Below are positions 20,701 to 41,004 of a DNA stretch of 64,000 nt, piece by piece. Under the pieces are notes generated by a model, which was not told where the DNA came from, made no database searches, and saw only the letters and a list, made by a program, of their open reading frames with translations. The translations under genes and the position numbers were made by a program. This stretch comes from a virus. The stretch lies in IMG/VR virus record IMGVR_UViG_3300028384_000675, positions 28,947-92,946 of that record. One strand, given 5' to 3'. Numbering within the stretch: the first letter of the stretch is position 1; each line of letters starts with the position of its first letter.

Positions 20701-22550
20701 GAAACGAGTTGCCTTACATCGCTGTCGACTTCATTAAGATAGTTGACGATTTCAGTCAACGAGTCTATAGCAGCAGGATCTGTGTTGGTTATGACGTTAT
20801 TAATCTTGTCTTCGATACGCTGTTCTTCACCCTTTGCGCGCAGTTCTTCTGCGTCAATCTGTGCTCGTAGGTCAGAGTCTGCTGCGATTCTAGCAGAGTT
20901 TTCGATACCGACAGTGTTCGCTGCTTGCTGTATAGCATAGTCTCGTGCCGAGTCAATTCTTTCTACAACAGTGTTACCAGAAGTACCATCAATTGATGCG
21001 TCACCAATGAGTAGCGTGTCATGCGCCTTCGCGCTCGCGAGTGTATCCGAGTCGCCCTGATTAATTAAATCTGTCAAATCTTGGCGTAATGATTGCTCAT
21101 CAGCAAGACGAGAGGTTCTTTCGGAATCAAGCGAACTGGTTAGTTCTGACAGCGCATCGATACGTGCTGAGATTTCTGAATCAAGTCCAGTTTGTATATT
21201 TTCATTGTCATCAATTCTATCCGATCGTTCAGAGTCAAGTAAATCGAGCAGGTCTTCGATTGCATCAAGGCGGTTTGATGTTTCTGAATCAACTTTAGAA
21301 GAGAGATTAGAAATAGCAAGGGAAAGTGCTCTCGCTTCTGAGTCAAGGTTGCTTTGTACCGCAGCGTCACCTAAAATCCTTGCGCCGCGCTCAGAGTCGA
21401 TTAAACCTAAAAGATCAGCATCTGCTTGTATTCTATCTGCACGTTCTGAATCTAAGTTTGAGGACGCGCCTTGAATTGAGTTAATTCTGTCAAATCTTTC
21501 TGAGTCGAGTTCTGCCAATAAGTCTTCTATCGCATCGAAGCGATCTTCTTTTTCAGAATCCAGTTGCGCCAGTATGCTTTCGATTGCGTCAAGACGATCA
21601 TCTTTTTCTGAGTCAAGTCGCGAGATAAGGTCATTGATTGCTGCGAAACGATCGCTCTTCTCTGAGTCGAGATCGCCAGAAAGTGCACTAAGTGCATCTA
21701 TTCTAGCATTCGTTTCTGCTGTCAAATCAGAATCAAGGTTGGCGTCACCCTGTTGCCTTGCTGCTATTTCTATTTGTAACGCAGAGTCAAGGGAAAGGAT
21801 TGCTTCTTCGTTGGTTGAAACTCGATTAGTAAGCAACCCGAGATTGATATTTGTAAGATCAATTCTAGATGACAGATCAGTGTCAAGCGAAGCAACTGTA
21901 TTGGTGAGCGTTGTAATACCACCCTCGGCAACTCCCATACGAGAATTTAAATTGCTCAACGTTGAATTATTGTTGCCAATATCTCTGTTAACGTCAATCT
22001 TAAATTGATCAAACTCACCTTCTAATGATTCGAGGTTGTCGCTGTCAATGTTTAATCGTTCTACAAGAGGAAGGGTCGCTGTCGCAATTACATCGTTAAT
22101 AAATGCAGAGTCTTTTGAATAGATATCGTATCGCAGACCTTCGATTTTATCATTAAGTGCACCAACACCCATCTCTGCCATGGTGTCGACAACATAACCT
22201 CGGATCGCACCAGAGGTAGGAATCGTAGAGTCGAGCGTTAGAAAATCGTCAGCATTATCTACAATGCCATTTACTGTAACTTGTGTGACGTGATCGCGTA
22301 ATTTACCAAAACTTAATTCACCTGTCGCACGAACGTCTCCACCAACCTCAATATCATTATTGACGATCAGGTCTTGACTAACAACCGCATCATTACCGAC
22401 ATCGGTAACGTTCTTAACAGTGTCAGCAAATAAATTTTCCTTTCTTACTTTCTTGGTTCTGCCACCGTCGCTTGCATCGTTGACAATCAGGGTGTCTTTA
22501 TCACCAACCTGATCCAATTCTTGTAATTGCGATATTTTTACGTCTGTCAT
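11763..22550 (-). CDS. Giant tail fibre (3595 aa) with self-cleaving endosialidase-type chaperone
   Basis: The domains in order are these. Residues 1-100: the shared anchor (VKISQLQELDQVGDKDTLIV, TKKVRKENLF, SQDLIVNNDI). About 100-1530: coiled-coil repeats with LDSE/IDSE every turn of the pattern (DLIDSEMTRAL, LQSQIDSGL). About 1530-3400: some twenty beta repeats built on NNDTITL, ADGT, SVTISD, TGVLT and LDGRYV. Residues 3497-3595: a Peptidase_S74 intramolecular chaperone (SDEKLKENI, GVIAQDVEKVLP, VNYDTMSALFIEAI) that assists trimer folding and is normally released by cleavage before the Ser. The protein is probably a very long side fibre. It has its own promoter and a strong terminator just upstream. 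All 3595 codons are open. Confidence 0.85.
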   Translation of the reverse strand: MTDVKISQLQELDQVGDKDTLIVNDASDGGRTKKVRKENLFADTVKNVTDVGNDAVVSQDLIVNNDIEVGGDVRATGELSFGKLRDHVTQVTVNGIVDNADDFLTLDSTIPTSGAIRGYVVDTMAEMGVGALNDKIEGLRYDIYSKDSAFINDVIATATLPLVERLNIDSDNLESLEGEFDQFKIDVNRDIGNNNSTLSNLNSRMGVAEGGITTLTNTVASLDTDLSSRIDLTNINLGLLTNRVSTNEEAILSLDSALQIEIAARQQGDANLDSDLTAETNARIDALSALSGDLDSEKSDRFAAINDLISRLDSEKDDRLDAIESILAQLDSEKEDRFDAIEDLLAELDSERFDRINSIQGASSNLDSERADRIQADADLLGLIDSERGARILGDAAVQSNLDSEARALSLAISNLSSKVDSETSNRLDAIEDLLDLLDSERSDRIDDNENIQTGLDSEISARIDALSELTSSLDSERTSRLADEQSLRQDLTDLINQGDSDTLASAKAHDTLLIGDASIDGTSGNTVVERIDSARDYAIQQAANTVGIENSARIAADSDLRAQIDAEELRAKGEEQRIEDKINNVITNTDPAAIDSLTEIVNYLNEVDSDVRQLVSSNTTRVSDETSERLAGDSALGVRIDQEIAARRAADSDLQDAINTSVNTEASLRSAADSDINARIDQEVLNRLSVGEDLQGNIDSAREELIDRIEQEESLRAVGDSATLSAARLYTRQRDALMIGDATVDGTAGNTITSRIATAKQEANTYTDNEIIGLRSGEVTSLTARMDSAESRLDDAETAIDSATARLSNINKTLSDLIDSESQRAIGIEGNLQSQIDSGLGRTLNLESDLTSMIDSETQRAIRVEGNLQSQIDSATLRLTNINQTLDGLIDSEMNRALDAESELRGLIDSELSRAIDAERFLRDLIDSSLSLSINADSDIRLDIDANTAAIDSEITRAIRVDGELQDLIDSASLRLTNINQTLSDLIDSEMTRALAVEGSLQSQIDSGLSRTLNLESDLLSRIDSNSTSIADEIARAIEAEGDLQDLIDSESTRVTDINKALSDLIDSETRRAIDVETRLQSQIDSGLERSVTLESDLLGRIDSNATSIAEEIGRAILAEEGLQDAIDSATTRLTNINRTLSDLIDSEMTRAQGVEARLQSQIDSGLERSVNLESDLLSRIDSNSTSIADEITRAILAEGDLQSGIDSATSRLTNINKTLSDLIDSEMNRALDVEKDLQSQIDSGLSRSINLEADLTSMIDSNATDIRANNILIDQEIARAILRDSELSTAITQEAETRYDADSALQINIDAVNRRVDGLLDSAPGDLDTILEIIEAFRDADSDLKTLIENNSSILSTLNTDVGTLQGEMDDAEDILDDLQPRMDSAENRLDSLEGRTSVGESDVADLQSRLGSGPLDTVNQVIIPSINELHGEHDLVEGRMTAAESDIAANALYNLTAFDSVISRIEITEDRLDSNSAVLVDVLGDIVSLQLADSALGTRILGNDDDIASLDLRVDGNDSDIDAIRTTIQDIKGGKQVLRETNPLTVSDDTITLHLADDTSVSVTVNDNFLTGISLNPTTGVLTGFRRDGQTVATGFDSRYVHNQSSQALRSVNPITVDNDTITLHLADGNTAQVTVDDSDVNNFVNNLTFNSSDGVLTASRSGLPDLNVTLDGRYQPTGNYVTTNSAQALDPTNPITVLNDTITLNLADGNSVQVTVNDNYLTGVGFNTTTGLLTAYRNDAGLVTISLDGRYVEQTSAQALHPTNALEVNDDTITLYKADGTFESHSIIDAIGTDYFITGLSFNTSSGTLIGSRNDGNTVSTNFDGRYVNQNSVQALRANTPLTISGDTITLHRADGTSISVDIDDEFYPDDQTLSWNASSGELTISDGNTVDIDGRYTQTTSAQVLRSTNAIAVNNDTITIYKGDGTSESVTISDANTNTYITSLALSTDGELTIGRNDGGSFTVDLESHFVDKAGPQALHPTDALRSSGDTIYLYKGDGTREAVTIVDNNDFITGASFTGGTLSLTGSGSAGASVSLDGRYQPVGNYVTTTSAQALHPTNALEVNDDTITINKADGTSESHDISDALGTDYFITGLSFNTSNGVLTGTRNDGNSVTAGLDGRYDNYSNWKLTDGSSTESISSGETITVSGGDNVTTTLSTSTNTLEISAENDFVTGASFSNGTLSLTGTGDAGASVSLDGRYVEQTSPQALRATNPLTVNNDTITLHLADGTTDEVTISDANTNFYINAATFNGGTLSLTGVGAAGASVNLDGRYVPNDGVQALHSTDALRISGDTIYLYKGNGTYESVTFDDEHYHYQNLSFSGGHSGTGVLSISNGNSVDLDGRYVHQTSSQALPVGAALAVNNDTITLTRADGTVESVTISDANTNTYTTSFVFNDVNGVLSIGRNDGGNFSVDLDDRYVHSQSPQLLRTTNPLTVSGDTITLHMADGSTDAVTIDDDFFPNQNLSWNGANGQISISGGNTIDIDGRYQPAGDYVTTSHVQALHPTDALQVNNDTITLKRADGTTESVTISDAIGTDYFVTGISFNTGNGVLTANRNDGQTLTTDFDGRYVEQTSPQALRASNALTVSDDTITIHKGDGTSESVTISDYFEYDDQTLSWNGTTGKLTISDGNTVDLDGRYLLQGTYDNYVSWSLSDGSTSQEVTSLDLIKVVGGTNVTTSLNTTDNQLTISATDTNNYLSSVSWNASTDEITFGRNGLSSLSVDLGLAERFDKYDRWKISDGTNHEYIYSNDTLKVVGSGDVSTTYTASTNTLSIGSTNTYVDGASFNSSNDVLTLSRHSMSDVTVDLGLTERFDKYTSWTITDGTHDEAVTSGQSVKFEGAGAASTTYYAASNTLRITSTDTNDFITGASFSTGTGILSLTGTGGAGASVDLDGRYLLQGTYDNYVSWNLKNGSTTEAVTSGETIEFAGSGASSVSYNATSKKVTISSTDTNNYVNSASFSGGVLALGGVGAAGASVSLDGRYQLAGSYDNYNHWKVKVGSNNTDNIYSGNTLKFLSGGATSLGYNAETNTVTISSTDTNTDTNYYVDGASFNDTNGILTLSRAGLGDVTVDLDGRYATSNTDTTYDLYASTSANIDGAAITLDPSTGTSDQVWLKGGNNVSVSRVSSNQINIASTDTNNYVSSASYSAGSGKLTLHRAGLSSIDVTIGSNSNNYLDGASFNTGNGELTLSRSGGMSNVVVDLDGRYSTTDTNTTYSQATSSTLGLVKIGYNENGQNYPVELSNGQMYVNVPWTDTNTDTNTNRLTTFTVEDGDGTAVTMSHGKRFKFVEAAASVSGSSNYINMNWVDTSPGSTGDPYDLAISHNKTDRTNTTNSTSPGYSGSFTVVDNITTNPEGHITAVNTKTVSLPAAASGGSTDYINAASFNTGSGVLSLTGTGSAGASVDLDGRYYIRGDHIDLNDDKKVQFGTGDDYEISFDGSHLYIHQNQVSTNDIYISDVANANKFFFNVSTGDFHADGDIIAYSNSVSDEKLKENITVVENAVDKVQQLRGVEFTWKKDGEKSAGVIAQDVEKVLPQAVKEKDIMGEGEVVKTVNYDTMSALFIEAIKEQQEQIEALKAEIKALKG
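12290..17945 (-). repeat. Beta-repeat array of the giant fibre
   Basis: Roughly twenty degenerate units of about 60-110 codons, each with DTITL-x-x-ADGT and LDGRYV-x-x-TS-x-QAL segments. Variation between units is spread over the whole unit, and some units carry an added DNYxxWxxxDGS insert. Confidence 0.75.
18110..21900 (-). repeat. DSE/DSD coiled-coil repeat array of the giant fibre
   Basis: Repeats with LDSE, IDSE or IDSG placed at regular intervals between helical stretches such as RAIDVETRLQSQ and LTNINKTLSDL. The longest internal unit is about 65 codons and occurs at least six times between residues ~850 and ~1280. Confidence 0.75.
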
Positions 22551-24010: not shown

Positions 24011-24937
24011 TTAGTCAATAATAGTGAATGTTCCACCCATATTTTGATGCAATTGGCACTTATACTCATAACTTACACCCGACACTGGGGTGAATGAGAC
24101 ACTACCAGTTTCCGTTGGATCAGCAATGAGGACATTATTATCGTCAACGATCATAAACGGATGACCAGAAGTGTTTACATTAAACGTATATTCTGTTCCA
24201 GAAGTAAGGTCTAGTGATGGAGCTTCCACACCATTCAAATAGAACTTACCGTTAGAAACTGTCACGTTAAATGTCGTAACTTCTGGTTCTGGATCAGGTG
24301 CCGATTCAACCGTAAAGTCAGAAGTCGTTGTCGTAGCATTACCATTCGCATCAGTCGCAGTAAATCTCATTGAGAACGAAGTCGCTTCACTTCCTGGTGT
24401 TACTGTGAATACATTATCAGACTGGGATACTGTAGCGCCGTTGAGTGCGGAAGAAGCAGAAATTGCAGTAACTGAAACACCGAATTGATCGCCCCCAGAA
24501 CCATCAAACGCAGTTAGTTTGGTTGGTTGAGCAGATAGATTGTTTGCGTCATAGACGTAGACTGAACCAGTGTAAGAATCGTCATAATACGCACCAACGA
24601 CGATCTTATCAGCAGTAGCAGCAACTGATATACCGAACTGATCGCTAGCAGCGCCATCAAACGCTGTTAGTTTAGTCGGTTGAGCAGATAGATTGTTGGC
24701 ATCATAGACATAAACTGAACCCTTAGTGTCGTCACCATATGCACCAACAACGATCTTATCACTAGAAGCAGCAACTGAGTGTCCAAAGAGATCATTCGCA
24801 GCACCATCAAATGCTGTTAGTTTCGTTGGTGTTGCAGATAGATTGTTGGCGTCAAAGACATAGACTGAACCAGATTGAGTTCCATTGTCATCGTCAGCTT
24901 GTGCGCCAACAATGATCTTGTCAGCAGTAGCAGCAAC
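24011..24937 (-). CDS. C-terminal continuation of the FG-GAP giant beyond two stop codons
   Basis: After the stops at 24938-24943 the same frame stays open for 308 codons. It continues the blade pattern without loss (VAATADKIIVGA, GSVYVFDANNLSA, then two more blades). A linker (SDNVFTVTPG) follows, then an Ala-Pro-Asp-Pro-Glu hinge and a cupredoxin-like domain. That domain runs FNVTVSNGKFYLNG, SGHPFMIVDD and YEYKCQLHQNMGG, with a possible copper set His, Cys, His, Met. The first in-frame ATG is at 24370, after the propeller part, so independent translation would give only 119 residues. The segment completes a seven-bladed propeller begun before the stops. It may be read through, be a dead remnant, or reflect an assembly error. 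Confidence 0.7.
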   Translation of the reverse strand, partial: VAATADKIIVGAQADDDNGTQSGSVYVFDANNLSATPTKLTAFDGAANDLFGHSVAASSDKIVVGAYGDDTKGSVYVYDANNLSAQPTKLTAFDGAASDQFGISVAATADKIVVGAYYDDSYTGSVYVYDANNLSAQPTKLTAFDGSGGDQFGVSVTAISASSALNGATVSQSDNVFTVTPGSEATSFSMRFTATDANGNATTTTSDFTVESAPDPEPEVTTFNVTVSNGKFYLNGVEAPSLDLTSGTEYTFNVNTSGHPFMIVDDNNVLIADPTETGSVSFTPVSGVSYEYKCQLHQNMGGTFTIID

Positions 24938-25540
24938 TTACTAACCGAAGGAATCAAAAGAAGCACCATCAAACGCAGTTAGTTTAGTCGGTTGAGCAGA
25001 TAGGTCATTGGCGTCATAAACATAGACTGAACCATTGAAATCGTCACCATTTGCACCAACGACGATCTTGTCGGAAGAAGTAGTAATTGAATATCCGAAT
25101 TTATCATTCGCAGCGCCATCAAATGCAGTTAGTTTAGTTGGTTGAGCGGATAGATTGTTGATGTCATAGACATAGACTGAACCAGTGTAAGAATCTTCGC
25201 CGTATGCACCAACAATGATCTTATCAGCAGCAGTAGCAATTGAGATGCCGAAGAAATCGCCCGCAGCACCATCAAATGCTGTTAGTTTAGTTGGTGTTGC
25301 AGATAAATTATTGGCGTCATAGACGTAGACTGAACCAGACTGAGATCCATTGTCATCATCTAGGCGTGCACCAACAATAATCTTATCAGCAGTAGCAAAA
25401 ACATTCTCTCCGAAGCAATCACCTGCAGCAGCATCAAACGCTGTTAGTTTCGTTGGTGTTGCAGACAGATTGTTGGCGTCATAGACATACACTGAACCGG
25501 AACTAGATCCATTGTCGCCGTCACCCCATGCACCAACAAC
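24400..25540 (-). repeat. Near-identical propeller blade repeats
   Basis: Seven blade units of about 150-165 bases, all containing a stretch like CCATCAAACGCAGTTAGTTT on the plus strand (near 24500, 24650, 24800, 24965, 25115, 25265 and 25430). They are far more alike than blades further upstream, which suggests recent duplication or gene conversion. They are also a hazard for short-read assembly. Confidence 0.8.
24938..24943 (-). other. Tandem in-frame stop codons TAG TAA
   Basis: The minus strand reads GGT TAG TAA GTT at the place where other blades have Phe-Gly followed by two residues such as Tyr-Ser or Ile-Ser. The preceding blade uses TAT TCA here, so each stop is one base change away. 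The frame is otherwise intact on both sides. Confidence 0.9.
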
Positions 25541-28500
25541 GACATAACTTGATCCTGACGCTACTTCCTCATAAGACCATGTAATCGCATCGCCTTCTGG
25601 ATCAGTACCAACTGCAGTAATTGCTGTTCCGCTTCCACCTGCTGTCAGCAGATATGAAGACTCAATACCAGTCACCGATGGTGCTTGGTTGACATATGTA
25701 AAGTCAAAGTCAGATGACACTGACGTTACATTACCTTCTGAGTCAGTCGCCTTAAAGGTCAACTGGAAGTCAGCGTCCTGTTGACCAGGAGTTACTGTGA
25801 ACACGTTATCAGATTGCGCAACGGTTACATCACCGAGTGGACTAGGTGCAACAGATCCAACTGCGTTAAATCCAAAGCTAATGCTAGTACCAGTTCCCGC
25901 AGGTGGATTTACTAATTCTGGTGCTGCCGATAAATCGCTCAGGATGTAAACATACATACCACCAGTACTCGCGTCTTTTCTGTGAGCAGAAGAATATAAC
26001 TTATCGCCAATTATGGTTGTGTTATATCCTAGCATTGCACCTGTTGCTGGAGATTCCAATACTGTCGGAGCAGCAGAAAGGTTGTTTATGTTATAAACAT
26101 AAATAGCACCTGCTGATGAGTTTCTTTGGTGTGCCCCGACGAAAAGTTTATCTTCGTGTGGAAGAACAGACATACCAAAGTAATCTCCTTCAGCAGCATC
26201 GAATGCTACAAGTTTCTCAACAAAGGATAAGTCGCTTTCGTTGTACACGTATACAGCACCACCACTAGTACCGTTCGAATTATGGTCCGCAGTCACAGCA
26301 GAAATATAGATCTTACCCCCATAAGTTTTTATTGAGTATCCGCCAAATCTGTCAGACTCAGACGCATCTGGCGCAGTTAATTTCTGTACGAATGCATAAG
26401 TATTGACATCGTAAACATAAACTGCTCCAGCATCAGTACTATTGTCGTCGTCTCCCATCGATCCAATCAAGATATGATTAGATGTTACTGTTATACCTCC
26501 GCCAAGTCCAAAATAGTCGCGATGATCGCCGTTGGTAGGAGTTAATGTTGCCTGAAGCGAAAGGTCAGATTTGTTGTAGATATAGACTTTTCCGGTATAA
26601 TCATCATTACTGTTCGTTGTTGGTCCCCATCCATATGCTCCAATGATCAATAAGTCGTCAGTGACGGAAATTCCGCTTCCGAATCGAAGGTTATTCTGCG
26701 CTTCGCCAGTAAGCATGGTCGGCGCGGCAGAAAGGTCGCTTCTATCGTAAATATAAACCGCTCCGCCCCAGGTTTCATCCGATTCATCTGACATCATCTC
26801 ACCTATGTAGATTTTGTCGGAATCAATTTCCATTGAAAATCCAAATCGTTCTGCTGATGAACCGTTCGGCGCAGTAAGCAATGTTGGTTCCTCTGTCAAA
26901 TCAGTTGGATTATATACATACACATAACCCTGATAACTATTAGATTGTATCGCAGAAACAAATAACTGATCTTGTGACGTGGATGACACTGCCTCATACG
27001 ACCATGTAACCGTGTCACCTTCTGGGTCAGTTGCCGCAGCAGTGATCACAGTGCCCTGACCTTGAGTCAGAGTATATGTTGAGTCAATACCAGTCACCGA
27101 TGGTGCTTGGTTAACATAGGTCAACGAGAAGTCTGCATCTCTGGTATCCGTATTTCCTGCTGTATCAGTGAGGGTGAATCGTATCGTGAAGTTTGCATCA
27201 GCAGTTCCTGGTGTTACTGTGAATTCGCCGCCATTTTGCGTTATAGCAGTTCCGTTCAAACCAGAAGGAACGCCTCCGTTCAAGACTTCTGCAAACGACC
27301 AAGTAACAGCGTCGCCGTCAGCGTCAGATGACATACCAACGATCACCTCGTCTACACCCTGAGTCAGCGTATACACAGATTCAATACCTGTGATCACTGG
27401 CGCAGCATTATAGTCAAAGGTGATGTCAGAGGTCGCAGTAGTCGCTGCACCGTTTGTATCAGTTGCCGTAAAGGTCAACTGGAAGGTAGCATCTTGATCC
27501 CCAGGAGTGATTGTGAACACGTTACCCGCCTGAGTTACTGTTGTACCTGAAAGGTCGCCAGAAGTTACTGCGTAAGTCAACGAAACAGTATCACCGTCAG
27601 AGTCTGAAGTTGTTACTGTGATCTCAGTATCTTGACCTTGATCCAGCGTATACGAAGAATCAACGCCAGTTATTGATGGCGCGTCATTATAGTCTAGTGT
27701 AAACTCAGAATCGAAGTTTGTCTGGTTTCCTGACTCATCAGTTGCAGTAAAGCGCAACGTGAAGTTAGCATCCTGTTGTCCAGGAGTTACTGTGAAGTCA
27801 TTACCGTTCTGCGTTACAGTAGTTCCGTTCATACCAGAAGGAACACCCTCGCCTAGAACTTCTTCGTAACTCATAGTAACTGTTTCGCCTTCGGCATCAG
27901 ATACTACAGGAACGATTACTTCGTTAACGCCCTGAGTCAATGTATACGCAGGTTCAATACCGCCGAGTGACGGTGCTTGATTCACGTATGTAAAGTCAAA
28001 GTCAGATGTTGTAGAAGTCACATTACCGTTTGAGTCAGTCGCCTTAAAGGTCAACTGGAAAGTAGCATCCTGTTGTGCAGGTGTTACTGTGAAGACATTG
28101 TCAGATTGTGTTACAGTGACACCGTTGAGTTGCGAAGATAGATTATTTGCAGAAACTGAATAACCGAAATAATCTGCTCCTGCGCCATCATATGCTGTTA
28201 GTCTGGTCGGTTGAGCAGAGAGATCATTTATATCATAGACATAAACTACTCCAGTATATGTACTACCAGGACCGCCGTATGCTCCGACAATGATTTGTTC
28301 AGACGTTACCGCAAGACCAGTGCCGAACATATCAGTCGCAGCACCATCAAACGCTGTTAGTTTCGTTGGTTGAGCAGACAGATCGTTTGCGTCAAAGACA
28401 TAAACTGATCCAGATTGCGCCCCTCGGTCATCATCAGCATATGCGCTCACAACTACCTTATCAGAACTTATAGCAACGTGTTGCCCGAACATATCGCTCG

Positions 28501-31500
28501 TTGCCCCATCGTATGCTGTTAGTTTCGTTGGTGTCGCAGAAAGATCGTTCGCGTCATAGACATAGGCAGTGCCTGTATTGCTATTATCGCCCCTCGCTCC
28601 GATAACGACCTGACTAGAGGATGCTTCGATTGATATTCCAAACATTTGGTTTTCTGAAGCATCCGGAGATACCAACTTAGTTGGTTGAACAGAAAGGTCT
28701 GACTTATCGAAAACGTATACCGCTCCAGAATTATTTCCGTGATCGTCATCAAACGATCCGACTAATATCTTATCAGCAGTCGTAGCGAATCGATATCCGA
28801 AGTTATCACTCACAGCGCCATCATATGCTGTCAACTTAGTTGGTTGTGCATTAAGGTTATTTATGTCAAAGACATAAACTGCACCGGCATAAGTTGCCTC
28901 TTGATCATCCCAAGAATTTCCGACAATAATTTGATCTTCGGTAACTAGAACACGTTCTCCGAACCTTTTATCTCCTGCTTGATTATGCATATCATATGCT
29001 GTCAGTTTTGTTGGAGTAGCAGAAAGGTTGTTCAAATCGTACACGTAAACTGAACCAGAGTTAGGTTGCCCATCATCATCACCATATGATGTTACAGCTA
29101 ATATATTAGAATTTAAAGAAGAATGCCTGCCGAAGGAATCACCCGCAGCACCATCAAACGCAGTTAGTTTCGTTGGTTGGGCAGATAGATTATTCGCGTC
29201 AAAGACATAAACTGAACCAGAATTAGACCCGTTGTCATCGTCTCCTGCTGCTGACACAACCACATAATTCGTACCAGAGATTACTTCCTCATAACTCCAT
29301 GCGATCGCATCACCTTCTGGATCAGTTCCGACTGCAGTGATCACAGTGTCCTGACCTTGAGTCAACGTGTAAGCAGACTGGATTCCAGTCACCGATGGCG
29401 CTTGGTTGACGTAAGTAAAGTCAAAGTCAGAAGTTGCTGAAGTTGCGTTACCTTCTGAGTCAGTCGCAGTAATGCGTAACTGGAAGTCAGCATCAGCAGT
29501 TCCTGGCGTTACTGTAAACACGTTATCAGATTGTGTTACAGTGACACCGTTGAGTTGTGAAGGAGCAGAAACTGCAGCGACTGCCCAACCGAAACGATCG
29601 TCGTAAGCAGCATCAAATGCGAACAACTTAGTTGGTGCTGCTGATAGATCGTTTCTATCATAAACCCATACTGACCCATTTCTGCCATCGTCCATATTGG
29701 CGCCAATTACAATACTGTCTTCATTTATAGAGATATCTTGTCCGAAGTATTCGGATTCAGTATCGCCATCATCAGGTGCCGTGAGTTTTGTTGGAGCAGC
29801 AGAAAGATCGCTAGTATCATAGACATAAACTGCGCCTTGATAAGCATTACCATTTTCTGATTTTCTTTCTGCACCAACTACAAGAGACCCATGACGTGCA
29901 TCGACCCGCTCTCCAAAGTAACTATTTGACGTTAAATCTGACTCAGTAATAATTGTTGGCGCTGCTGATAGATCACTCAGAGCGTAAGCAAAGACTGCAC
30001 CTTTTCTACCATTATATCCCATGGCACCAACGTAAAGATTAGTGTCATCAGAAGCGAGGTAACAACCTAACTGTAAGTAATCTGTACCATCTTCGAGTTT
30101 TGTTGGTGCTGCTGATAGATCGCTCAGAGAATATACATAAACTGCTCCGTGATTATAAGAACCATGTTGTCGGCAACCAACATAAACATTATTGCTGTCT
30201 ATGTGTACAGCTCTTCCAAATTGATCAGAACTACCGCCATCAGGTGTAACCAACTTGGTAGGAGTTGCACCTAAATTAGAAGCGTCATAGACATAAACTG
30301 CACCGGCATTAGTCGTTTTTGTATCGTCGTTGATTGCAGAGACTACTACATGCGTTTCAGTTGCTGAAATTGCCCAACCCACATTGTCAGACGCAGTTGA
30401 TGGTGATAGTATTGTTGGTGCTGCTGATAGATCGCTTAAATCATAGACGTAGGCGCTACCAAAATTGTTCCCTCCGGTGTCATCGGAATAAGCACCAACG
30501 TAAAGTTTAGTGCTAGTCATAAACATACTCGCACCATAATTGCCGGAAACTGGTGATAATTTAGTTGGTCGAACAGATAAATTGTTAGCATCATAGACAT
30601 AAACTGAACCAGAGTTAGTTCCGTGAACGTCATCGAGCGGTGCACCAACAGCAATATAACTTGATCCAGACTTAACTTCTTCGAACGACCATGTAATCGC
30701 GTCACCTTCTGGATCAGTTGCCGCAGCAGTGATCACAGTATCCTGACCTTGAGTCAGCGTGTAAGCAGACTGGATTCCAGTGACGGTTGGCGCTTGGTTG
30801 ACATAGTCGAAGTTGACCGTTGCTGGTACAGTTGCCGTGTTACCGTTTGAGTCAGTCGCCTTGATGTTCAATGTAAACGAAGCATCCTGAGTTCCTGGCG
30901 TTACTGTGAACACGTTATCAGACTGTGTTACAGTAGTTCCGTTGAGTGCAGATGATAATACATTATATTCATTAACATTCTTAGAGTCATTGTAGTCCGC
31001 AACAAAAACCTTACCAGATCCGAAACCTATACCCAACTCAGAATAATTATATGAGTATTCAGATGGATTGTATGATCCTGCTAAAGCATTTGTACTTAGA
31101 TCATATATCCTCATCTCACCAGAATTATGATTCAGTATCAAATATCCATCAGAGACAGATATCTGTTCAGATATCTGACTACTAGAATATGAAACTACAT
31201 CAGAGAGTCTATTTCCAGTGGTAGCATCGTATACGAAGATGGTTCTTTGGTCCGAAACATAAATCTTATCGTTCGAAATCTCAACATCCGCTATCTCATT
31301 AACTCCATCGAAATCGATTCTAAATGAACCATTTTGATAATCTGTGATGTCTGGATATACAGTTAAGTGTTTTCCATATGAACTCTTGCTAGCCACTACA
31401 ACCTTATTCTCTTCGGATACTATAACTTCTCCCCATTTAGCATATTCTACAGCACCTTGTGGATCAGCAATCCATCCATCTATTTCAGCATATGTGTTTT

Positions 31501-34500
31501 TGTCGTAAATACGAATTGCACCAGATTGGTTTCCTGATTGATGTCTCCCATGAGCACCAACAACAATTCTATCGGTTGTCACAGTGACAGCGAAACCGAA
31601 TTTTTCACCGTTAGATCCAGATGGGTTGTAGATTGATTGGAGTTTATTACCATTCAGGTCTGCAATCACAATACCACCTGCTTGGGTTCCGCCTGTAGGC
31701 GCTAATTGCTCCCCGCCGCTGACAACAATATCGTCCCCAAAGGCAATTGAAGCGCCTAAAAACTGAGATCCGGATGTCGAATCAGGTTCTATTCTATTAA
31801 TCAATTGTCCTGTTTGATGATTGAACAGGAATACTGCTCCTCCATAACTACTATATCCAGTATTACTGATCGCAACGATATCACCGCTTACTTTTACCGT
31901 CTTCCCTGGGCGATCAGAAGACCCCGGATCTGCAAATTTATATGGTGCATAACTGTTTCGAACGAACGATTCAGAAGTTAGAGAAACAGATAGTTGCTCC
32001 TCGAACGACCATGTGATCGCATCACCTTCTGGATCAGTTGCAGCAGCAGTGATCACTGTATCCTGACCCTGAGTCAGCGTATATGCTGCGTCAATACCAG
32101 TAACGGTTGGAGCGAAGTTATGCGCTCTTGCGTCTGCTGTATCATACATTGCAAGAGAAGATCCCAAGAATGCGCGATTAGTTGGATTAGACTGGTGAAT
32201 TGTATTCAGTAGATTACCGCTCATGTCGTATACACGGAGTTCACCAGAAGAAGTCTCTGCTGCATTCTTACCGTAGTCGCCGACAACGATTCTGTTGTTT
32301 GCAACAGAGATTCGAGTGTTGTTGGTAGATGCGATCTTTTGCATATTCGATCCATCAAGGTCGAAGATGTAGAAGTGAGCGGCGTTATCTGAACCGACAA
32401 CAACCTTCTCATGTCCAATTGCGAGACCAGTACCGAAACGGGCAACACTTGTAAGTGCTGGATCGTAGAGTCTTACCTCATTAGATCCATCGAGGTCATA
32501 AAGATAAACCGATCCAGCGAAACTGTTGATTGATCCGCCGTCAGCGATAAACGCAGTAACTGCAATTTTTCCGTTACCAATAGCGATCTCATAATCGCCG
32601 AATTGATCGCTTTCAGTCTGACCATCTGTAGCAGAAATTGTATTTATGAACGTTCCCTGCATGTCATAGATATAAACCTGACCTGAATCTGTAACACCGT
32701 CAGCATCTGCCATTGGAGCGCCGACTACGATTCTTCCATGACCCGCAGCAACTTTCCAACCGAATTTGGTCCAACCGTTCTGACTTCCTGCTCCTGGTAA
32801 TCCAGCAGAAGGTTCAGTAACTTTAATTTCGTTTGAACCATCCAAGTCGTAAATGTAGAATTCCCCTAGTCCAGAACCGCCTTCATAAGTACCGACGATA
32901 ATCTTCCCATCGCTGATTGCGACTGATGTACCGAATAGGGTACTAGGTGCCGAAGGAGTTATCTCTATTGGTTCGTTTGTAGTTGCGAGATCGTATACGA
33001 AGACTCTCTGTTCAGTTCGTTGACCAACAACGAGGATTGTACCGTCGATTGCCATGTTTTCGTCAGCACCGAACTGAGAATCATTATCCATACCTGCTGG
33101 GATGAACAATTCTTTCTCGTTTGATCCGTCAAGGTCAAACGCATACAATTTGTTCGAGTAGTTGTTATTTGATGCTGCTGCAATAATTCTTCCAACAGAA
33201 GTATCATTAACAACTGGTACCGGAATCTCATAATCGAACGTTGGTGTGACCTTAGTAGAATTGCCTTCTGAGTCAGTCGCCTTGATGTTCAATGTAAACG
33301 AAGCATCCTGAGTTCCTGGTGTTACTGTGAATACGTTATCAGATTGTGTGATAGTGACACCGTTGAGTGCAGACGAAGAAACATACCCTACCATATTGTC
33401 ACTAAATGCAACATAAGTATTTGACCCAGAGATTTGATGCGATGTTCCTTGCCCAGTATAGAGATATGTACCAGAACTTAAATCCGCAAAGTCATATACA
33501 TACAATTTTCCGGTGTTATTATTCTCAGTCTTGTCTCCAACAAAGAGTCTATCTCCTGATACGGCAAGATCTGAACCGAATTCATAACCCGTATTGGAAG
33601 GTTTGTATATGATTGCTGGATTGGCACTCAAGTTATTCCTATCGAACACCCATACGCTTCTATCACTTTCTTTCTGGACTATTACATGATCAGAAGAAAG
33701 TGCAACACTTCTACCAAATTTAGCGCTTCTAATAGCAAACAAAGGTACAGATATTGGCGCTGCAGACAAATTTTCAGTATCGTAAATATACGCTGCTCCG
33801 GAGTTTGCCTGAGATCCATTATATTCAAACGGTATACCAACGACAAAATGCGTTCCGAAAGCGGCAATGGAACAGTCTTGTAAAGTTGCAGACGCATTTA
33901 GTACTGTTGGAGACGCAGATAAATCGTCAAGGTCATATACGACCAAAATTCCATAACTTTGACCTGACGCAGTCGACTGCGAACAGATCAACTTATTACC
34001 CGAAACGACGATATTTTCACCAAAATCACGATTCATTGCAGAATTTGGCGAAGTTAGTACTGTCTTGTTAACAGTATACGGATCGACGGTACCAGAACCT
34101 AAATCATTCAGATCAAATACCCATATTGCACCGCGATTGTTTGTTAATGATGGATGACCTACAATTAGGTGATTATCTGTAATTGCAATTGATTCTGCAG
34201 TAGATTGATACTGTATTTCAACTTCATGGGTAGATAAATCATTTAGGTCATATATTCTTATTGAATTACCACGCTTTCCTGCTAATTTACCGCCGCCAAC
34301 AGTCATCATTATCAGAGGATCTTGAATGGTTTCGATTAGTTCCATTGTAGACGGGTTGTACAAATATGTGTCGTAACTGCTTTTAACAAAAACGCCTGAT
34401 CCCAGTACTTCTTCGAACGACCATGTGATTGCATCGCCTTCTGGATCAGTTCCGACTGCTGTGATCACAGTATCCTGACCTTGAGTCAGTTCATATGTTG

Positions 34501-36406
34501 AGTCAACGCCAGCAATTACTGGTGGTTGATTGACATATATGATGTTAGTTGTTACAGATGTTGTGTTGTCTTCAGTGTCAGTCGCAGTAATACGCAAGTT
34601 GAAATCTGCATTTTTCATTTCTGCTGTTGGTGTCACTGTAAACGTGTTATCAGATTGCGTGATAGTGACGCTGCTCGCTGGAGCAGTGTTTGCTGAAACT
34701 CTAATTCCAAAGAAATCCCGATATCCACCATCGAATGCTGTTAACTTGGTTGGTGCTGCGGATAGATCGTTTAGATCATAAACATAAGTCGAACCGGCTT
34801 GATTTTCACTATAACTCGATCCGACGATAACATGATCGTCAGTTATCGCAACATCTGATCCGAAAAATTCGAATTCAGAGTCGCCGTCATCTCCCACATA
34901 CAATTGAGTCGGTTGAGCAGAAAGGTCGCTTAGGTCAAAGACGTAAACAGCACCTTGATACACTTGTCCATCCATTGTTTTTCTATGGGCAGCGATTACA
35001 GCAAAATTTTCGTTCGCTACAATCCTATCTCCGAAGTTGTCTCGACCATGACTAGTTGGTGGAGACGATCCATCAAACGCTGTTAGTTTCGTTGGTTCGG
35101 CAGAAAGGTCGTTTAGGTCATAGACATAAACTGCACCAGTATCGATACCTAGATCGTCGTCACCCACGGCGCCAACAAACAATTTACTGCTTGTCAATTC
35201 AATGTCGGCACCAAATTGGTGCGCGGCACCAGTGTACTGGTTTGTCAACAAATCACTTGGCACGATTTCAGTTGGAGCGGCAGAAAGATCGTTTATATCA
35301 TAAAGGTATACTATACCTTCGTCGACGGTGGGATTCCCAGCATCGTTTGTTCCATCCACCCTAGACACGCCGACAGCAAGATAACTTTCGTTCAAAGACA
35401 TATATTCTCCGAACTTATGTTGATTGCCGCGCGGATCTTCGAGTATCTTAATTGGATCAGCAGACAAATCATTCAAGTCGTAAACATATACAGCACCTTT
35501 GGATCCATTTGACGTACTGATATACCCATCGAACGCACCAACCACAAGTTTGTTACTATTGACAGCGATACGCTTTCCAAATACAGTCCACTCTCCTTGA
35601 TCAGGTGGAACTATTTTTATTGGATCAGCAGAAAGGTCGCTGGTGTCATAAACATAAACTGCGCCGCCGGCACTGAGACCGGAGTCAGTTTTGACATAAG
35701 AACTAATGAAAAGTCTTTCAGGAGTAACTAAAACGTCGCCCGCACCAAACTGATCACTCGCAGCACCATCAAATGCTGTCAACTTAGTTGGCGCTACAGA
35801 TAAATTGTTTGCATCATAGACATAAACTGCACCAGCGTTAGATCCTTTATCATCGTCACCACTTGACGTTACAACTATATAACCGCCGCTTCTAAGTTCT
35901 TCGAACGACCATGTGATCGCATCACCTTCTGGGTCAGTACCAACTGCAGTAATTACGGTGTCCTGACCATATGTCAGATTGTAAGTAGATTGGATTCCAG
36001 AAACGAATGGTGGGAAGTTGATCATCAATTCTGGTTGGAATGATATTGAATCGATTACGTAATCATTCTTACCGTACCAACCAGTGTGGAATTTAAGGTC
36101 TGGATTGTAGTCTGCTGCGGTAGGTCGCATTGATACTGTATCGAGATCAACCGAATCCTTACCATAAATTCCAGTGTGGAATTTAAGGTCTGGATTATAT
36201 GTGGCGTCCGTTGGTTGTAACGATATTGAATCGATTACATAACCGTCACCCTTACCATACCATCCAGTGTGGTATTTTAAATCTTCATTATAATCTGCGG
36301 AAACTGGTCTAATCGAAGTTGTAACGACTACGACTTCCTCTATCTCTGCTTCAAACCAGCTTTGCTTACTTCCTGCTAATGCCGACGTTAGGTGTCTAAA
36401 GCGCAT
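24941..36406 (-). CDS. Giant integrin-like FG-GAP propeller adhesin (3821 aa before stops)
   Basis: This is a huge modular protein. It begins with three short repeats (SISLQPTDATYNPDLKFHTG type). About eight FG-GAP beta-propellers follow, with blades such as DQFGAGDVLV and KLVVGAFDG plus GAVYVYDLNDLSA. They are separated by cadherin/Ig-like linkers (QSDNVFTVTPGTQDASFTL, NQAPSVTGI, YTLTQGQDTVITA, TDPEGDAITWSFEE). Four linkers occur in a row near residues 2730-3090. Some blades hold calcium-loop-like DDDNGSNSG motifs, as in integrin alpha chains. GGGAGAG precedes the ATG. No signal peptide is seen, as expected for a virion protein. It probably forms a long bead-like fibre. Two stop codons cut the last propeller (see the following continuation). 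The copies near the C-terminus are almost identical in DNA. Confidence 0.85.
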   Translation of the reverse strand: MRFRHLTSALAGSKQSWFEAEIEEVVVVTTSIRPVSADYNEDLKYHTGWYGKGDGYVIDSISLQPTDATYNPDLKFHTGIYGKDSVDLDTVSMRPTAADYNPDLKFHTGWYGKNDYVIDSISFQPELMINFPPFVSGIQSTYNLTYGQDTVITAVGTDPEGDAITWSFEELRSGGYIVVTSSGDDDKGSNAGAVYVYDANNLSVAPTKLTAFDGAASDQFGAGDVLVTPERLFISSYVKTDSGLSAGGAVYVYDTSDLSADPIKIVPPDQGEWTVFGKRIAVNSNKLVVGAFDGYISTSNGSKGAVYVYDLNDLSADPIKILEDPRGNQHKFGEYMSLNESYLAVGVSRVDGTNDAGNPTVDEGIVYLYDINDLSAAPTEIVPSDLLTNQYTGAAHQFGADIELTSSKLFVGAVGDDDLGIDTGAVYVYDLNDLSAEPTKLTAFDGSSPPTSHGRDNFGDRIVANENFAVIAAHRKTMDGQVYQGAVYVFDLSDLSAQPTQLYVGDDGDSEFEFFGSDVAITDDHVIVGSSYSENQAGSTYVYDLNDLSAAPTKLTAFDGGYRDFFGIRVSANTAPASSVTITQSDNTFTVTPTAEMKNADFNLRITATDTEDNTTSVTTNIIYVNQPPVIAGVDSTYELTQGQDTVITAVGTDPEGDAITWSFEEVLGSGVFVKSSYDTYLYNPSTMELIETIQDPLIMMTVGGGKLAGKRGNSIRIYDLNDLSTHEVEIQYQSTAESIAITDNHLIVGHPSLTNNRGAIWVFDLNDLGSGTVDPYTVNKTVLTSPNSAMNRDFGENIVVSGNKLICSQSTASGQSYGILVVYDLDDLSASPTVLNASATLQDCSIAAFGTHFVVGIPFEYNGSQANSGAAYIYDTENLSAAPISVPLFAIRSAKFGRSVALSSDHVIVQKESDRSVWVFDRNNLSANPAIIYKPSNTGYEFGSDLAVSGDRLFVGDKTENNNTGKLYVYDFADLSSGTYLYTGQGTSHQISGSNTYVAFSDNMVGYVSSSALNGVTITQSDNVFTVTPGTQDASFTLNIKATDSEGNSTKVTPTFDYEIPVPVVNDTSVGRIIAAASNNNYSNKLYAFDLDGSNEKELFIPAGMDNDSQFGADENMAIDGTILVVGQRTEQRVFVYDLATTNEPIEITPSAPSTLFGTSVAISDGKIIVGTYEGGSGLGEFYIYDLDGSNEIKVTEPSAGLPGAGSQNGWTKFGWKVAAGHGRIVVGAPMADADGVTDSGQVYIYDMQGTFINTISATDGQTESDQFGDYEIAIGNGKIAVTAFIADGGSINSFAGSVYLYDLDGSNEVRLYDPALTSVARFGTGLAIGHEKVVVGSDNAAHFYIFDLDGSNMQKIASTNNTRISVANNRIVVGDYGKNAAETSSGELRVYDMSGNLLNTIHQSNPTNRAFLGSSLAMYDTADARAHNFAPTVTGIDAAYTLTQGQDTVITAAATDPEGDAITWSFEEQLSVSLTSESFVRNSYAPYKFADPGSSDRPGKTVKVSGDIVAISNTGYSSYGGAVFLFNHQTGQLINRIEPDSTSGSQFLGASIAFGDDIVVSGGEQLAPTGGTQAGGIVIADLNGNKLQSIYNPSGSNGEKFGFAVTVTTDRIVVGAHGRHQSGNQSGAIRIYDKNTYAEIDGWIADPQGAVEYAKWGEVIVSEENKVVVASKSSYGKHLTVYPDITDYQNGSFRIDFDGVNEIADVEISNDKIYVSDQRTIFVYDATTGNRLSDVVSYSSSQISEQISVSDGYLILNHNSGEMRIYDLSTNALAGSYNPSEYSYNYSELGIGFGSGKVFVADYNDSKNVNEYNVLSSALNGTTVTQSDNVFTVTPGTQDASFTLNIKATDSNGNTATVPATVNFDYVNQAPTVTGIQSAYTLTQGQDTVITAAATDPEGDAITWSFEEVKSGSSYIAVGAPLDDVHGTNSGSVYVYDANNLSVRPTKLSPVSGNYGASMFMTSTKLYVGAYSDDTGGNNFGSAYVYDLSDLSAAPTILSPSTASDNVGWAISATETHVVVSAINDDTKTTNAGAVYVYDASNLGATPTKLVTPDGGSSDQFGRAVHIDSNNVYVGCRQHGSYNHGAVYVYSLSDLSAAPTKLEDGTDYLQLGCYLASDDTNLYVGAMGYNGRKGAVFAYALSDLSAAPTIITESDLTSNSYFGERVDARHGSLVVGAERKSENGNAYQGAVYVYDTSDLSAAPTKLTAPDDGDTESEYFGQDISINEDSIVIGANMDDGRNGSVWVYDRNDLSAAPTKLFAFDAAYDDRFGWAVAAVSAPSQLNGVTVTQSDNVFTVTPGTADADFQLRITATDSEGNATSATSDFDFTYVNQAPSVTGIQSAYTLTQGQDTVITAVGTDPEGDAIAWSYEEVISGTNYVVVSAAGDDDNGSNSGSVYVFDANNLSAQPTKLTAFDGAAGDSFGRHSSLNSNILAVTSYGDDDGQPNSGSVYVYDLNNLSATPTKLTAYDMHNQAGDKRFGERVLVTEDQIIVGNSWDDQEATYAGAVYVFDINNLNAQPTKLTAYDGAVSDNFGYRFATTADKILVGSFDDDHGNNSGAVYVFDKSDLSVQPTKLVSPDASENQMFGISIEASSSQVVIGARGDNSNTGTAYVYDANDLSATPTKLTAYDGATSDMFGQHVAISSDKVVVSAYADDDRGAQSGSVYVFDANDLSAQPTKLTAFDGAATDMFGTGLAVTSEQIIVGAYGGPGSTYTGVVYVYDINDLSAQPTRLTAYDGAGADYFGYSVSANNLSSQLNGVTVTQSDNVFTVTPAQQDATFQLTFKATDSNGNVTSTTSDFDFTYVNQAPSLGGIEPAYTLTQGVNEVIVPVVSDAEGETVTMSYEEVLGEGVPSGMNGTTVTQNGNDFTVTPGQQDANFTLRFTATDESGNQTNFDSEFTLDYNDAPSITGVDSSYTLDQGQDTEITVTTSDSDGDTVSLTYAVTSGDLSGTTVTQAGNVFTITPGDQDATFQLTFTATDTNGAATTATSDITFDYNAAPVITGIESVYTLTQGVDEVIVGMSSDADGDAVTWSFAEVLNGGVPSGLNGTAITQNGGEFTVTPGTADANFTIRFTLTDTAGNTDTRDADFSLTYVNQAPSVTGIDSTYTLTQGQGTVITAAATDPEGDTVTWSYEAVSSTSQDQLFVSAIQSNSYQGYVYVYNPTDLTEEPTLLTAPNGSSAERFGFSMEIDSDKIYIGEMMSDESDETWGGAVYIYDRSDLSAAPTMLTGEAQNNLRFGSGISVTDDLLIIGAYGWGPTTNSNDDYTGKVYIYNKSDLSLQATLTPTNGDHRDYFGLGGGITVTSNHILIGSMGDDDNSTDAGAVYVYDVNTYAFVQKLTAPDASESDRFGGYSIKTYGGKIYISAVTADHNSNGTSGGAVYVYNESDLSFVEKLVAFDAAEGDYFGMSVLPHEDKLFVGAHQRNSSAGAIYVYNINNLSAAPTVLESPATGAMLGYNTTIIGDKLYSSAHRKDASTGGMYVYILSDLSAAPELVNPPAGTGTSISFGFNAVGSVAPSPLGDVTVAQSDNVFTVTPGQQDADFQLTFKATDSEGNVTSVSSDFDFTYVNQAPSVTGIESSYLLTAGGSGTAITAVGTDPEGDAITWSYEEVASGSSYVVVGAWGDGDNGSSSGSVYVYDANNLSATPTKLTAFDAAAGDCFGENVFATADKIIVGARLDDDNGSQSGSVYVYDANNLSATPTKLTAFDGAAGDFFGISIATAADKIIVGAYGEDSYTGSVYVYDINNLSAQPTKLTAFDGAANDKFGYSITTSSDKIVVGANGDDFNGSVYVYDANDLSAQPTKLTAFDGASFDSFG

Positions 36407-36473: not shown

Positions 36474-36932
36474 TTAAACTTCTATTGCTTCGCCAACATA
36501 AGCGCCATAGATCGAAGAACCTACTTTCCAGAGGTTAATAATATGTGTTCCAGCGGTGCTAATAGTGTCAGGCGCTTCACCATTAATCCACTTGGTGGTT
36601 GGCCATGTAATAGCGTGATTATTGCTTTCGATATGAAGTGTAATGCTTTCGCCTGATGCCCAACCTGCTGCATATGAATATGTTGTTGCGCCTGACAGCG
36701 TGTGAACTGCGAGACTTCCGTTAGATGGGTCGATCGAAACTGATGTTCCGTTAAGCGAATCAACGCCTTCAACATAGTTATCAGCAGTTACTGATCCAGA
36801 AAAGGTTGAAGGGACAAGATCTGATACAGTAATTTTCTTAGATACATCCTCACTAACGTCAACGATTGCTACTACGTCGTCGTTTGATGGGGATCCTGAG
36901 AGTTGTGGAAGATCTGTGAATTTAATTGCCAT
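36474..36932 (-). CDS. Small fibre-like protein D with the shared anchor
   Basis: A 152-residue protein. Residues 1-45 are the anchor seen in other fibres (IKFTDLPQLSGSPSNDDVVAI, VSEDVSKKITVSDL). The remaining ~100 residues form a small beta domain (NNHAITWPTTKWINGEAP, ending YGAYVGEAIEV) of the type found at the tip of many marine phage fibres. AGGAG precedes the ATG. It lies just before the FG-GAP giant and may help attach it to the baseplate, which is inference from position and the shared anchor. Confidence 0.7.
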   Translation of the reverse strand: MAIKFTDLPQLSGSPSNDDVVAIVDVSEDVSKKITVSDLVPSTFSGSVTADNYVEGVDSLNGTSVSIDPSNGSLAVHTLSGATTYSYAAGWASGESITLHIESNNHAITWPTTKWINGEAPDTISTAGTHIINLWKVGSSIYGAYVGEAIEV

Positions 36933-39276: not shown

Positions 39277-41004
39277 TTATTGAATGGTATATTCCTCACC
39301 AGATTGAGAAATAAATTCAATTCCCAACTGCGAACCATATATGGTTTCAACGCCAAGATCCGGATCTGGTGCAAGACCACCGCCATTGTTTCCAGTATCA
39401 ACGCCCGTGTCAACACCCGAACCTGCTCCTGATCCAGGAGTAGTTTTGACTGAAACTAAACTAAATGGACTGTCAACACCGTATCGACTAAACAGGAACT
39501 TGTTCGGGCCACCCACCAAACTTCCGGTGGTTGTCACGTAATCGCTGTTCCTTGACGTATCTTCAATCATATCGTCAACAGCATCAGCAATCATTTTCCT
39601 CTTAAGTTTTGCCGGAGAAATATTAGGTTGACTTTGCAGGTGTAGTGCTGCCACACCGGCAACCTGAGGTGCTGCCTGACTGGTACCATCAAGAACCATG
39701 ATCTTATAATTAGGGTCTTCTGGGTATGCCAGAGTAGAACGACTTGAAGCAACTGTATTACTTGCCGCACTCATAATGTTAGTACCTGCTGCCCACATAT
39801 TAACTGCAGGACCACGGTTACTATTTTGCGCCGCACCATCTGTTGAAGAACCAGCAACACGAGGTTCGTTGGAAACGTTACCGACAAAGAATGCATCTTC
39901 GTGATACGGAGACGCCGGACGATGATAATAATATGTGTTGCCGTTGATCGTTACAGAGTTGTTGTAATCATCACCACCAGAAACATCTGCTTTGTAGTAT
40001 CCATTACCTGCAGAAATACAGACGTGAATACCAGCATCGATCATTTCCTCAATCTCCACATCATATGCAGTTATTTGCGCAGGAATAGAACGATTTCCGT
40101 TGCTAAACTTACTGACGATACCAAACTGAGAGTAAAGCGTAGAATCCGATTGACCACTATAGTTCCAAGAAGATCCACGATAAACACCAGAAGTAGGGTT
40201 TAGTGAAGTTGCGTGACGAACACCCCAACTCATATTAACAATCGTTGGACGACCGTTAGTCTTAGAATTGTGCCAGAGGCGAATCATATCAAATGCAGTT
40301 GATGGTGAAGTGCCGAACGGAACACCGCCAGTACCGCCAAGATCTACAATCTTTTGAGAATAAATGTGAGCACCTTTCGCCCAACCGTATGTTTTACCGG
40401 CAGCAATCGCAGCAACGTGAGTACCGTGACCGTCGGTGTCAGTGTAGTGATCCGGATGTTGCGATCCAGAGATACCGCTTTCTGCATACCAATCAATTTG
40501 TTGTAGGCGTGAGTTGCCCTCAGCATCTTGCCATTCAGGGTGATCTGCTTGAATACCAGTATCCTGAATAACAACATCGACACCAGCACCGTTCAGCGCG
40601 AAAACGTAATCACTCTCAAGGTTTTCGTTTACGTCTTCTTGACCGAAGTAAATATTAGTTCTGGCATTTGAGCGTCTCAACCCCCAGTTAACATTCGATG
40701 CAGTTGGTGCGCCTTTTCTCTTAAATCTACCGCCACGCTTTGCTTTTGCGTCGAGGGTAAATTCGATATCGTCTCTCATGTGTGGCGGTATCTCAACCGC
40801 AAGAACACGCTGATCAGATTGAAGCGTTGCCGCTTCTTCTTCTGTCAACATCCAATGCGTCATACGCTTAGAACCCTCGCGAGGGTCAGCAACTTGTACT
40901 GCACGATTAGGGATTGGAGAATCCCCAGTCGCAGCAGCAAGTTCTGCGTCGAACGCTGCTAAGTCCACTCCTTTGTGGACAATTACTACATATTCTTTTT
41001 CCAT
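39277..41004 (-). CDS. Subtilisin-like serine protease (peptidase S8)
   Basis: A 575-residue subtilase with a complete catalytic set: Asp148 (VVIQDTGIQ), His193 (DTDGHGTHVA), the oxyanion Asn334 (SAGNG) and Ser442 (LDGTSQAAPQVAG). Residues 1-75 (KEYVVIVHKGVDLAAF to LAVEIPP) look like an I9-type inhibitory propeptide. A basic stretch KAKRGGRFKRKG (87-98) could be the maturation site. No signal peptide is seen, so it acts in the host cell or in the virion. The C-terminus has a Gly/Thr-rich linker (SGVDTGVDTGNNGGG). AAGGGGGG precedes the ATG. It lies between a fibre protein and the neck operon, so it may process virion proteins or act on the host surface. Its substrate is unknown. It is not the usual T4 prohead protease gp21. 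Confidence 0.92.
   Translation of the reverse strand: MEKEYVVIVHKGVDLAAFDAELAAATGDSPIPNRAVQVADPREGSKRMTHWMLTEEEAATLQSDQRVLAVEIPPHMRDDIEFTLDAKAKRGGRFKRKGAPTASNVNWGLRRSNARTNIYFGQEDVNENLESDYVFALNGAGVDVVIQDTGIQADHPEWQDAEGNSRLQQIDWYAESGISGSQHPDHYTDTDGHGTHVAAIAAGKTYGWAKGAHIYSQKIVDLGGTGGVPFGTSPSTAFDMIRLWHNSKTNGRPTIVNMSWGVRHATSLNPTSGVYRGSSWNYSGQSDSTLYSQFGIVSKFSNGNRSIPAQITAYDVEIEEMIDAGIHVCISAGNGYYKADVSGGDDYNNSVTINGNTYYYHRPASPYHEDAFFVGNVSNEPRVAGSSTDGAAQNSNRGPAVNMWAAGTNIMSAASNTVASSRSTLAYPEDPNYKIMVLDGTSQAAPQVAGVAALHLQSQPNISPAKLKRKMIADAVDDMIEDTSRNSDYVTTTGSLVGGPNKFLFSRYGVDSPFSLVSVKTTPGSGAGSGVDTGVDTGNNGGGLAPDPDLGVETIYGSQLGIEFISQSGEEYTIQ

Follow-up and report, generated by a model that had tools for sequence, protein, structure and literature searches.

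Integrin-like propellers nested in Ig-like domains of a giant, probably adhesive tail-region protein of a T4-like phage

Background

It is an open question how ocean phages keep pace with host surfaces that change, and phage adhesins are known to vary by point change, by swaps of tip genes and through diversity-generating retroelements (DGRs). A propeller is the putative receptor-binding domain of the phage phi11 RBP (five-bladed), PRD1 P2 and PhiKZ gp131C (seven-bladed) (PMC4901313). Each of these has one propeller per chain, whereas the protein described here has eight. Tentaclins and other DGR-hypermutated phage adhesins are variable receptor-binding proteins with Ig-like domains (PMC10743442). 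They vary via DGRs, whereas variation here appears to come from cassette exchange and point change. We considered a DGR-diversified adhesin and rejected it because no reverse transcriptase (RVT_1), as a DGR would need, was found in the 92,946-base record, itself a fragment, or in four relatives.

The closest viral model is that of cyanophage S-TIM5 H6WG31/AEZ65754 (TM 0.81, 2.1 A, 31% identity), annotated as 'virion structural protein and packaging'. The likeness lies in its single FG-GAP propeller; the protein has 407 aa, and no nesting or module string was seen in it. Many other marine phage proteins show the simpler order of Ig followed by propeller. Those with an 'anchor - Ig - propeller' layout (L019, L044, L048) contain the same Ig-like domain and FG-GAP propeller, but in them the propeller follows the Ig domain, whereas here it is nested inside. 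Ig domains and propellers are already known in phages, while the propeller-in-Ig nesting and the cassette exchange appear to be new. Propellers nested in Ig domains, eight to a string and swapped as blocks, are described nowhere in the literature searched, which took in few subscription papers or preprints.

Results and discussion

A giant reading frame in a T4-like tail gene cluster

The window, the whole stretch of DNA analysed, comprises 64,000 nucleotides and comes from a linear virus record of 92,946 bases, in which it spans bases 28947-92946. With the standard code, an ORF at 24941..36406 on the minus strand encodes a giant propeller/Ig tail-region protein of 3821 aa. The same frame stays open past its stops down to 24011, for a total of 4131 codons, in line with the 3821 residues (about 4130 with readthrough) given in an earlier note on this DNA. 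The Pfam family FG-GAP_2 (PF14312) matched the 3821-aa protein with 760 bits (cut-off 23, E 6e-235), and 27 stretches of the protein passed individually. Across the 92,946-base record there were 38 FG-GAP_2 matches, every one within the giant frame. No PHROG family covered the 3821-residue part. Plain phmmer searches against PDB sequences with one module or the tip gave nothing convincing, so profiles and fold comparison were needed. No cellular relatives were found by a pattern scan of genome contigs, which detects only close matches to two short peptides.

The gene is encoded inside a T4-like tail gene cluster that includes a sheath stabiliser, a head closure protein, a head-tail adaptor and a baseplate wedge, which bears out the phage-tail setting proposed earlier. 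Other repeat-rich proteins can sit in tail clusters without binding receptors. For the baseplate wedge protein, the closest match is that of Phage C48C1 (40% identity), whose 156-kb circular genome (OQ984149) is filed under Kyanoviridae. Photosystem core genes, sought as a host clue, were absent from the fragment.

The N-terminal region (residues 1-129; 36020..36406, minus strand) consists of a start peptide, MRFRHLTSA, and three repeats of about 35 aa (SxRPxxADYNxDLKxHTGWYGK), and it is a possible attachment end. The first ten residues are common to the relative L009, nearly so to L010, and appear in Phage C48C1 as MRTRHLASAL; a phage search gave no relative of this region beyond these start-peptide matches. 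The upstream protein that the earlier note had put forward as a candidate anchor (36474..36932, minus strand) has 152 aa and no PHROG match.

Several other genes of the window were recorded in passing. The large terminase gene (775-3465, minus strand) is divided: its N-part closes with an intein-like start (EFGN followed by CLESRSQITV), its C-part begins after KSFTSHN (next residue T), and the two are separated by a GIY-YIG-type homing endonuclease ORF (1863-2585). It looks like a split-intein 'fractured' gene. A second giant ORF (11763-22550, minus strand) encodes 3595 aa, its best match being C-terminal, to phrog_28992 of unknown function. A subtilisin-family protease (39277-41004, minus strand; Peptidase_S8, E 2.5e-27; 95% in L009) is encoded among the neck and tail genes. 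A baseplate-region protein with an amidase domain (57888-59765, minus strand; phrog_822, E 3.5e-30) is probably a tail-associated lysin.

Propellers lie inside Ig-like domains

Two HMMs, built from the protein itself for the N-half and the C-half of the Ig-like linker, alternate strictly, ten times along the protein. Seven of the ten pairs enclose a propeller, 345-403 residues long, and in the other three the halves are contiguous, giving ordinary Ig domains of about 95 residues (residues 2809-3098). Eight propeller-sized blocks of 345-403 aa were found, only one of them, P3, un-nested. The count of about eight FG-GAP propellers in the earlier note thus held, but the simple alternation of propellers and linkers did not, since seven of the eight propellers sit between the N-half and the C-half of one Ig-like domain.

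From the N-terminus, and all on the minus strand, P1 (residues 175-577; 34676..35884) is nested in Ig domain 1 and P2 (670-1014; 33365..34399) in Ig domain 2; P3 (1069-1429; 32120..33202) follows, and then the nested P4 (1474-1821; 30944..31987), P5 (1915-2285; 29552..30664), P6 (2379-2760), P7 (3144-3525; 25832..26977) and P8 (3619-3988; 24443..25552). A blade HMM recognised seven blades in P1, P5, P6, P7 and P8, six in P2, five in P3 and two in P4. P2 to P4 are divergent, P4 the most, and because only two of its blades were recognised, it is assigned a propeller fold by position and length. The blades within P8 resemble one another at 75%, compared with 24-51% inside the other propellers here, as if the whole propeller had been re-grown from one blade; L010 and L011 are similar.

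The three uninterrupted Ig-like domains (2809-2906, 2907-2999 and 3000-3098; 27113..27982, minus strand) were delimited by the Ig-half HMMs. The second and third match Big_9 (34.6 and 29.5 bits, cut-off 23.6), and the first matches weakly, with Big_3_2 and He_PIG just under cut-off. Cadherin profiles fell below cut-off on the Ig-like linkers (Cadherin_5, 22.9 bits against 26.5; Cadherin_4, 17.6 against 25.1). Of the earlier description of the linkers as cadherin/Ig-like, an Ig/cadherin-like fold is retained, with Big_9 above cut-off, and the cadherin label is dropped on the HMM scores. The four linkers said to stand in a row, and proposed there as a possible hinge, proved to be three complete Ig domains flanked by two half domains.

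The propeller is predicted to fold like an integrin alpha head

We modelled residues 2334-2906 (27689..29407, minus strand), comprising an Ig N-half, P6, the Ig C-half and one uninterrupted Ig domain, using AlphaFold2 with 14 related modules (mean pLDDT 87.4, pTM 0.74). The strand order in P6 is B,C,D for blade 1, then A,B,C,D six times, then a strand A that closes the ring, making seven blades. In Foldseek the top PDB matches of the module were integrin alpha ectodomains (integrin alphaX, E 1.4e-15), and VIA-align superposed it on the integrin alpha5 and alphaV heads with Z about 36 and 2.5-2.6 A over 336-340 residues. The one module modelled is therefore a seven-bladed propeller in prediction, and the integrin-like character proposed for it from the letters stands. 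Profiles and model together give high confidence in a chain of Ig-like domains in which, for the most part, one loop of the domain accommodates a seven-bladed propeller of the integrin-alpha-head type.

The likeness to the integrin alpha head extends to the fold, the seven blades and an Ig-like 'leg' on the lower side. The integrin propeller ring closes with an outer strand, whereas the phage ring is closed by strand A last and is circularly permuted relative to it. The integrin head precedes its Ig domain; the phage head is inserted into one. Integrins also have a beta partner and a membrane part, neither of which is known for the phage protein, and a Pfam search of the protein found no thigh or calf domains of integrin alpha.

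Both ends of a nested propeller exit at the A-B turn of blade 1, which necessarily places the Ig domain on the A-B/C-D side and leaves the B-C and D-A loops to form the free face. In integrins the B-C/D-A face is the ligand-binding face, and strands A and B are joined by the calcium hairpins. The integrin hairpin motif DxDxD(G) between A and B was found in none of the 22 parsed blades here and in none of 79 when relatives were included. Since the A-B turn has only 3-5 residues in the parsed blades and the motif is missing from all 79, a reading of calcium binding at the integrin site is unsupported, and in this the phage propeller differs from the integrin head. Acidic segments such as DDDNG occur instead in the B-C loop (5 of the 22 parsed blades of this protein), where the DxDxG-like stretches that the note had taken for calcium loops are located. 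These B-C loops may bind cations.

Relatives and the exchange of whole propellers

Close relatives in IMG/VR are L009, L010, L011 and L018. The L010 frame is uninterrupted (4241 codons); the L009 giant is truncated by the contig end, that of L011 is also truncated, and L018 is a C-terminal piece. The Ig-half HMMs found a propeller nested between Ig halves in all four, as well as in L012/L013 and Phage C48C1. In the last, WJE88002 shares the MRxRHL start and carries two propeller-in-Ig modules, compared with eight propellers here, and WJE88004 carries an uninterrupted Ig domain and the same C-terminal cupredoxin tip (74% identical), which is thus on a separate gene. Both are annotated as hypothetical only. 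In relatives, the same Ig-like domain is present near the C-terminus of another tail protein (L021:5433-8312, L022/L051) whose counterpart in the window (52311-55007) is shorter, so this domain may be able to pass from one gene to another.

The nearest relative is L009, with 74% aa identity in P1, 90% in P3 and mostly 93-98% in the flanking tail genes. L009_P2, in contrast, shares 38% aligned identity with P2 here and is a different propeller; it corresponds to L010_P8 (92% aa, dS 0.043). Likewise, L010_P7 corresponds to L011_P5 (100% aa, dS 0.004) and L010_P4 to L011_P1 (93% aa, dS 0.046). The tail genes common to L009 and L010 have dS of 0.30-0.36, and the gene following the L010 and L011 giants 0.36. 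Nucleotide identity is 92-100% over most of a swapped block and about 60-70% at the Ig halves. Comparison of these sequences indicates that whole propellers have been exchanged, not only among relatives but also among positions, and that the breakpoints fall at the conserved Ig halves. Ig core DNA is 85-87% identical between all 20 copies, a conservation high enough for the cores to serve as recombination homology, and we infer that the propeller swaps did make use of it.

Every relative with exchanged propellers is a metagenomic contig, which would suit chimeric assembly as the origin of the swaps. We regard this as less likely, because the Ig cores share exact runs of no more than 36 bases (mean about 15) and the swapped copies are alike but mostly not identical.

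The exchange also suggests a wider and tentative proposal, to which we give somewhat less than an even chance. The Ig halves would act as recombination handles with which marine phages draw integrin-folded heads from a shared pool, as a standing, population-wide system. Up to eight different heads per fibre could address several receptors at once, and the host range could be changed by a single exon-like cassette swap.

Amino-acid change is concentrated on the free face

Strands and loops were labelled by the blade profile, and the figures that follow depend on this HMM labelling and on small regional counts. In three exchanged pairs (L009_P2/L010_P8, L010_P4/L011_P1 and L009_P4/L010_P2), omega was 0.88 in the top loops (B-C, D-A), 0.39 in strands and 0.09 in bottom loops; nonsynonymous against synonymous changes in top loops differed from the rest with a Fisher p of 2.5e-4. 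Two orthologous pairs of longer divergence gave a weaker effect in the same order (0.32 top, 0.24 strands, 0.16 bottom; p 0.017). Each of the seven pairs tested had residue differences enriched in the top loops (p at most 0.022). Neighbouring tail genes had omega values of 0.016-0.12, and a value of 0.33 was obtained for the gene at 41724-43073 (minus strand), a tail-region protein with YadA-head-like repeats whose L009 counterpart is far longer and fast-diverging.

This pattern marks the free face, on the far side from the Ig holder, as the part that is changing. Since the pooled top-loop omega is below 1, positive selection is not proven, and relaxed constraint, which the same value would fit, may account for the change.

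A probable receptor-binding fibre

We consider that the protein is probably a modular receptor-binding (adhesive) fibre of very large size, belonging to a T4-like marine myovirus. It would be carried on the tail and attached by its N-terminus, with the Ig domains as stiff holders and the integrin-folded heads as exchangeable binders of host-surface or matrix molecules. Swapping of heads through Ig DNA homology would change host range or adsorption. The end of the fibre would bear an exchangeable C-terminal tip, predicted to be a blue-copper domain here and a LamG-like lectin fold in one relative.

The same great length and many similar modules, with three plain Ig domains in a row and a ligand that is not known, might belong to a structural spacer, whisker or decoration whose domains provide length and flexibility and whose propellers bind nothing specific. 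We find this unlikely, given that the loops of the free face change far more than those on the Ig side and that whole heads are exchanged, which a spacer does not call for.

A double stop and the C-terminal tip

Two consecutive in-frame stops, TAG TAA (24938..24943, minus strand), cut P8 between blades 4 and 5. Beyond them the reading frame goes on to complete P8 and the Ig domain around it, with the closing Ig C-half of module 8 at residues 3989-4044 (24275..24442, minus strand; 81.9 bits), and ends in a domain of about 90 residues. With the last propeller cut in this way, this variant probably lacks the tip. The exact 26-base sequence around the double stop is absent from other IMG/VR contigs, and no stop inside the frame was seen in relatives among the matches listed. 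Exact repeats at the site are at most 27 bases, so an artefact of repeat collapse in assembly is possible but not obvious. Recoding of the stop codons was considered and rejected, as 30 other genes of the window end normally with TAA, TGA or TAG.

The double stop would remove three P8 blades, the last Ig half and the tip, and a stop that relatives lack, among the matches listed, could mean that the gene is here a decaying remnant with a non-functional product. This is quite unlikely: seven propellers lie upstream of the stops, there is no further stop or frameshift in 4131 codons, and both the downstream Ig half and the tip, still 74% identical to that of Phage C48C1, are well preserved. Because of these features and the 308 open codons downstream, the double stop most likely arose recently as a truncation, belongs to a minority variant, or is an error of sequencing or assembly.

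The domain beyond the stops (about residues 4039-4131; 24014..24292, minus strand) is cupredoxin-like, with an invariant His and Cys-x2-His-x2-Met. Its model (pLDDT 90) matches rusticyanin with Z 10.4 and 2.2 A over 90 residues, and its profile matches plastocyanin (E 1.7e-4) and amicyanin. HP and CxxHxxM, which supply the ligands His, Cys, His and Met, were present in 60 of 60 relatives examined, a count helped by scan patterns that favoured part of the motif, Met lying outside those patterns. On this basis the tip is predicted to be a blue-copper (cupredoxin) domain. It shares its fold and ligand pattern with rusticyanin, amicyanin and plastocyanin, and its loop spacing equals that of amicyanin; here, however, the cupredoxin forms the C-terminus of a tail-region protein in a phage. 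Cupredoxin-like domains are common in environmental phages (at least 196 confirmed stretches) and occur also in cyanophage baseplate and tail proteins. The full type-1 copper ligand set recurs in large environmental phage proteins (L023-L025, L062-L141).

The tips of relatives differ. L010 ends in a LamG/concanavalin-like domain (E 3.6e-11), L011 in another propeller-like block and L018 in a domain without a Pfam match. The LamG/concanavalin-like fold is common to lectins and glucanases, and the propeller is a common enzyme scaffold, so that the propellers might be enzymes, such as depolymerases of host polysaccharide. We judge this very unlikely, since the best structural matches are integrin heads and not enzymes, and no conserved polar centre was noticed, short of a systematic scan for catalytic residues. 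The readthrough raised in the earlier note, where it was right that the frame stays open, would as a programmed event yield forms with and without the conserved, in-frame tip, but it is extremely improbable, as two stops side by side terminate translation very tightly, the other 30 genes stop normally and relatives have no stop there among the matches listed.

Conclusions

A self-contained head with both ends on one side of its holder offers a simple physical explanation for clean exchange, and the Ig halves are ready-made breakpoints to seek in other phages. The cupredoxin domain emerges as a common component of environmental phage proteins. If the reading of the protein as an adhesin is true, the fold of the integrin head, familiar chiefly from the adhesion of animal cells, also serves adhesion between virus and bacterium.
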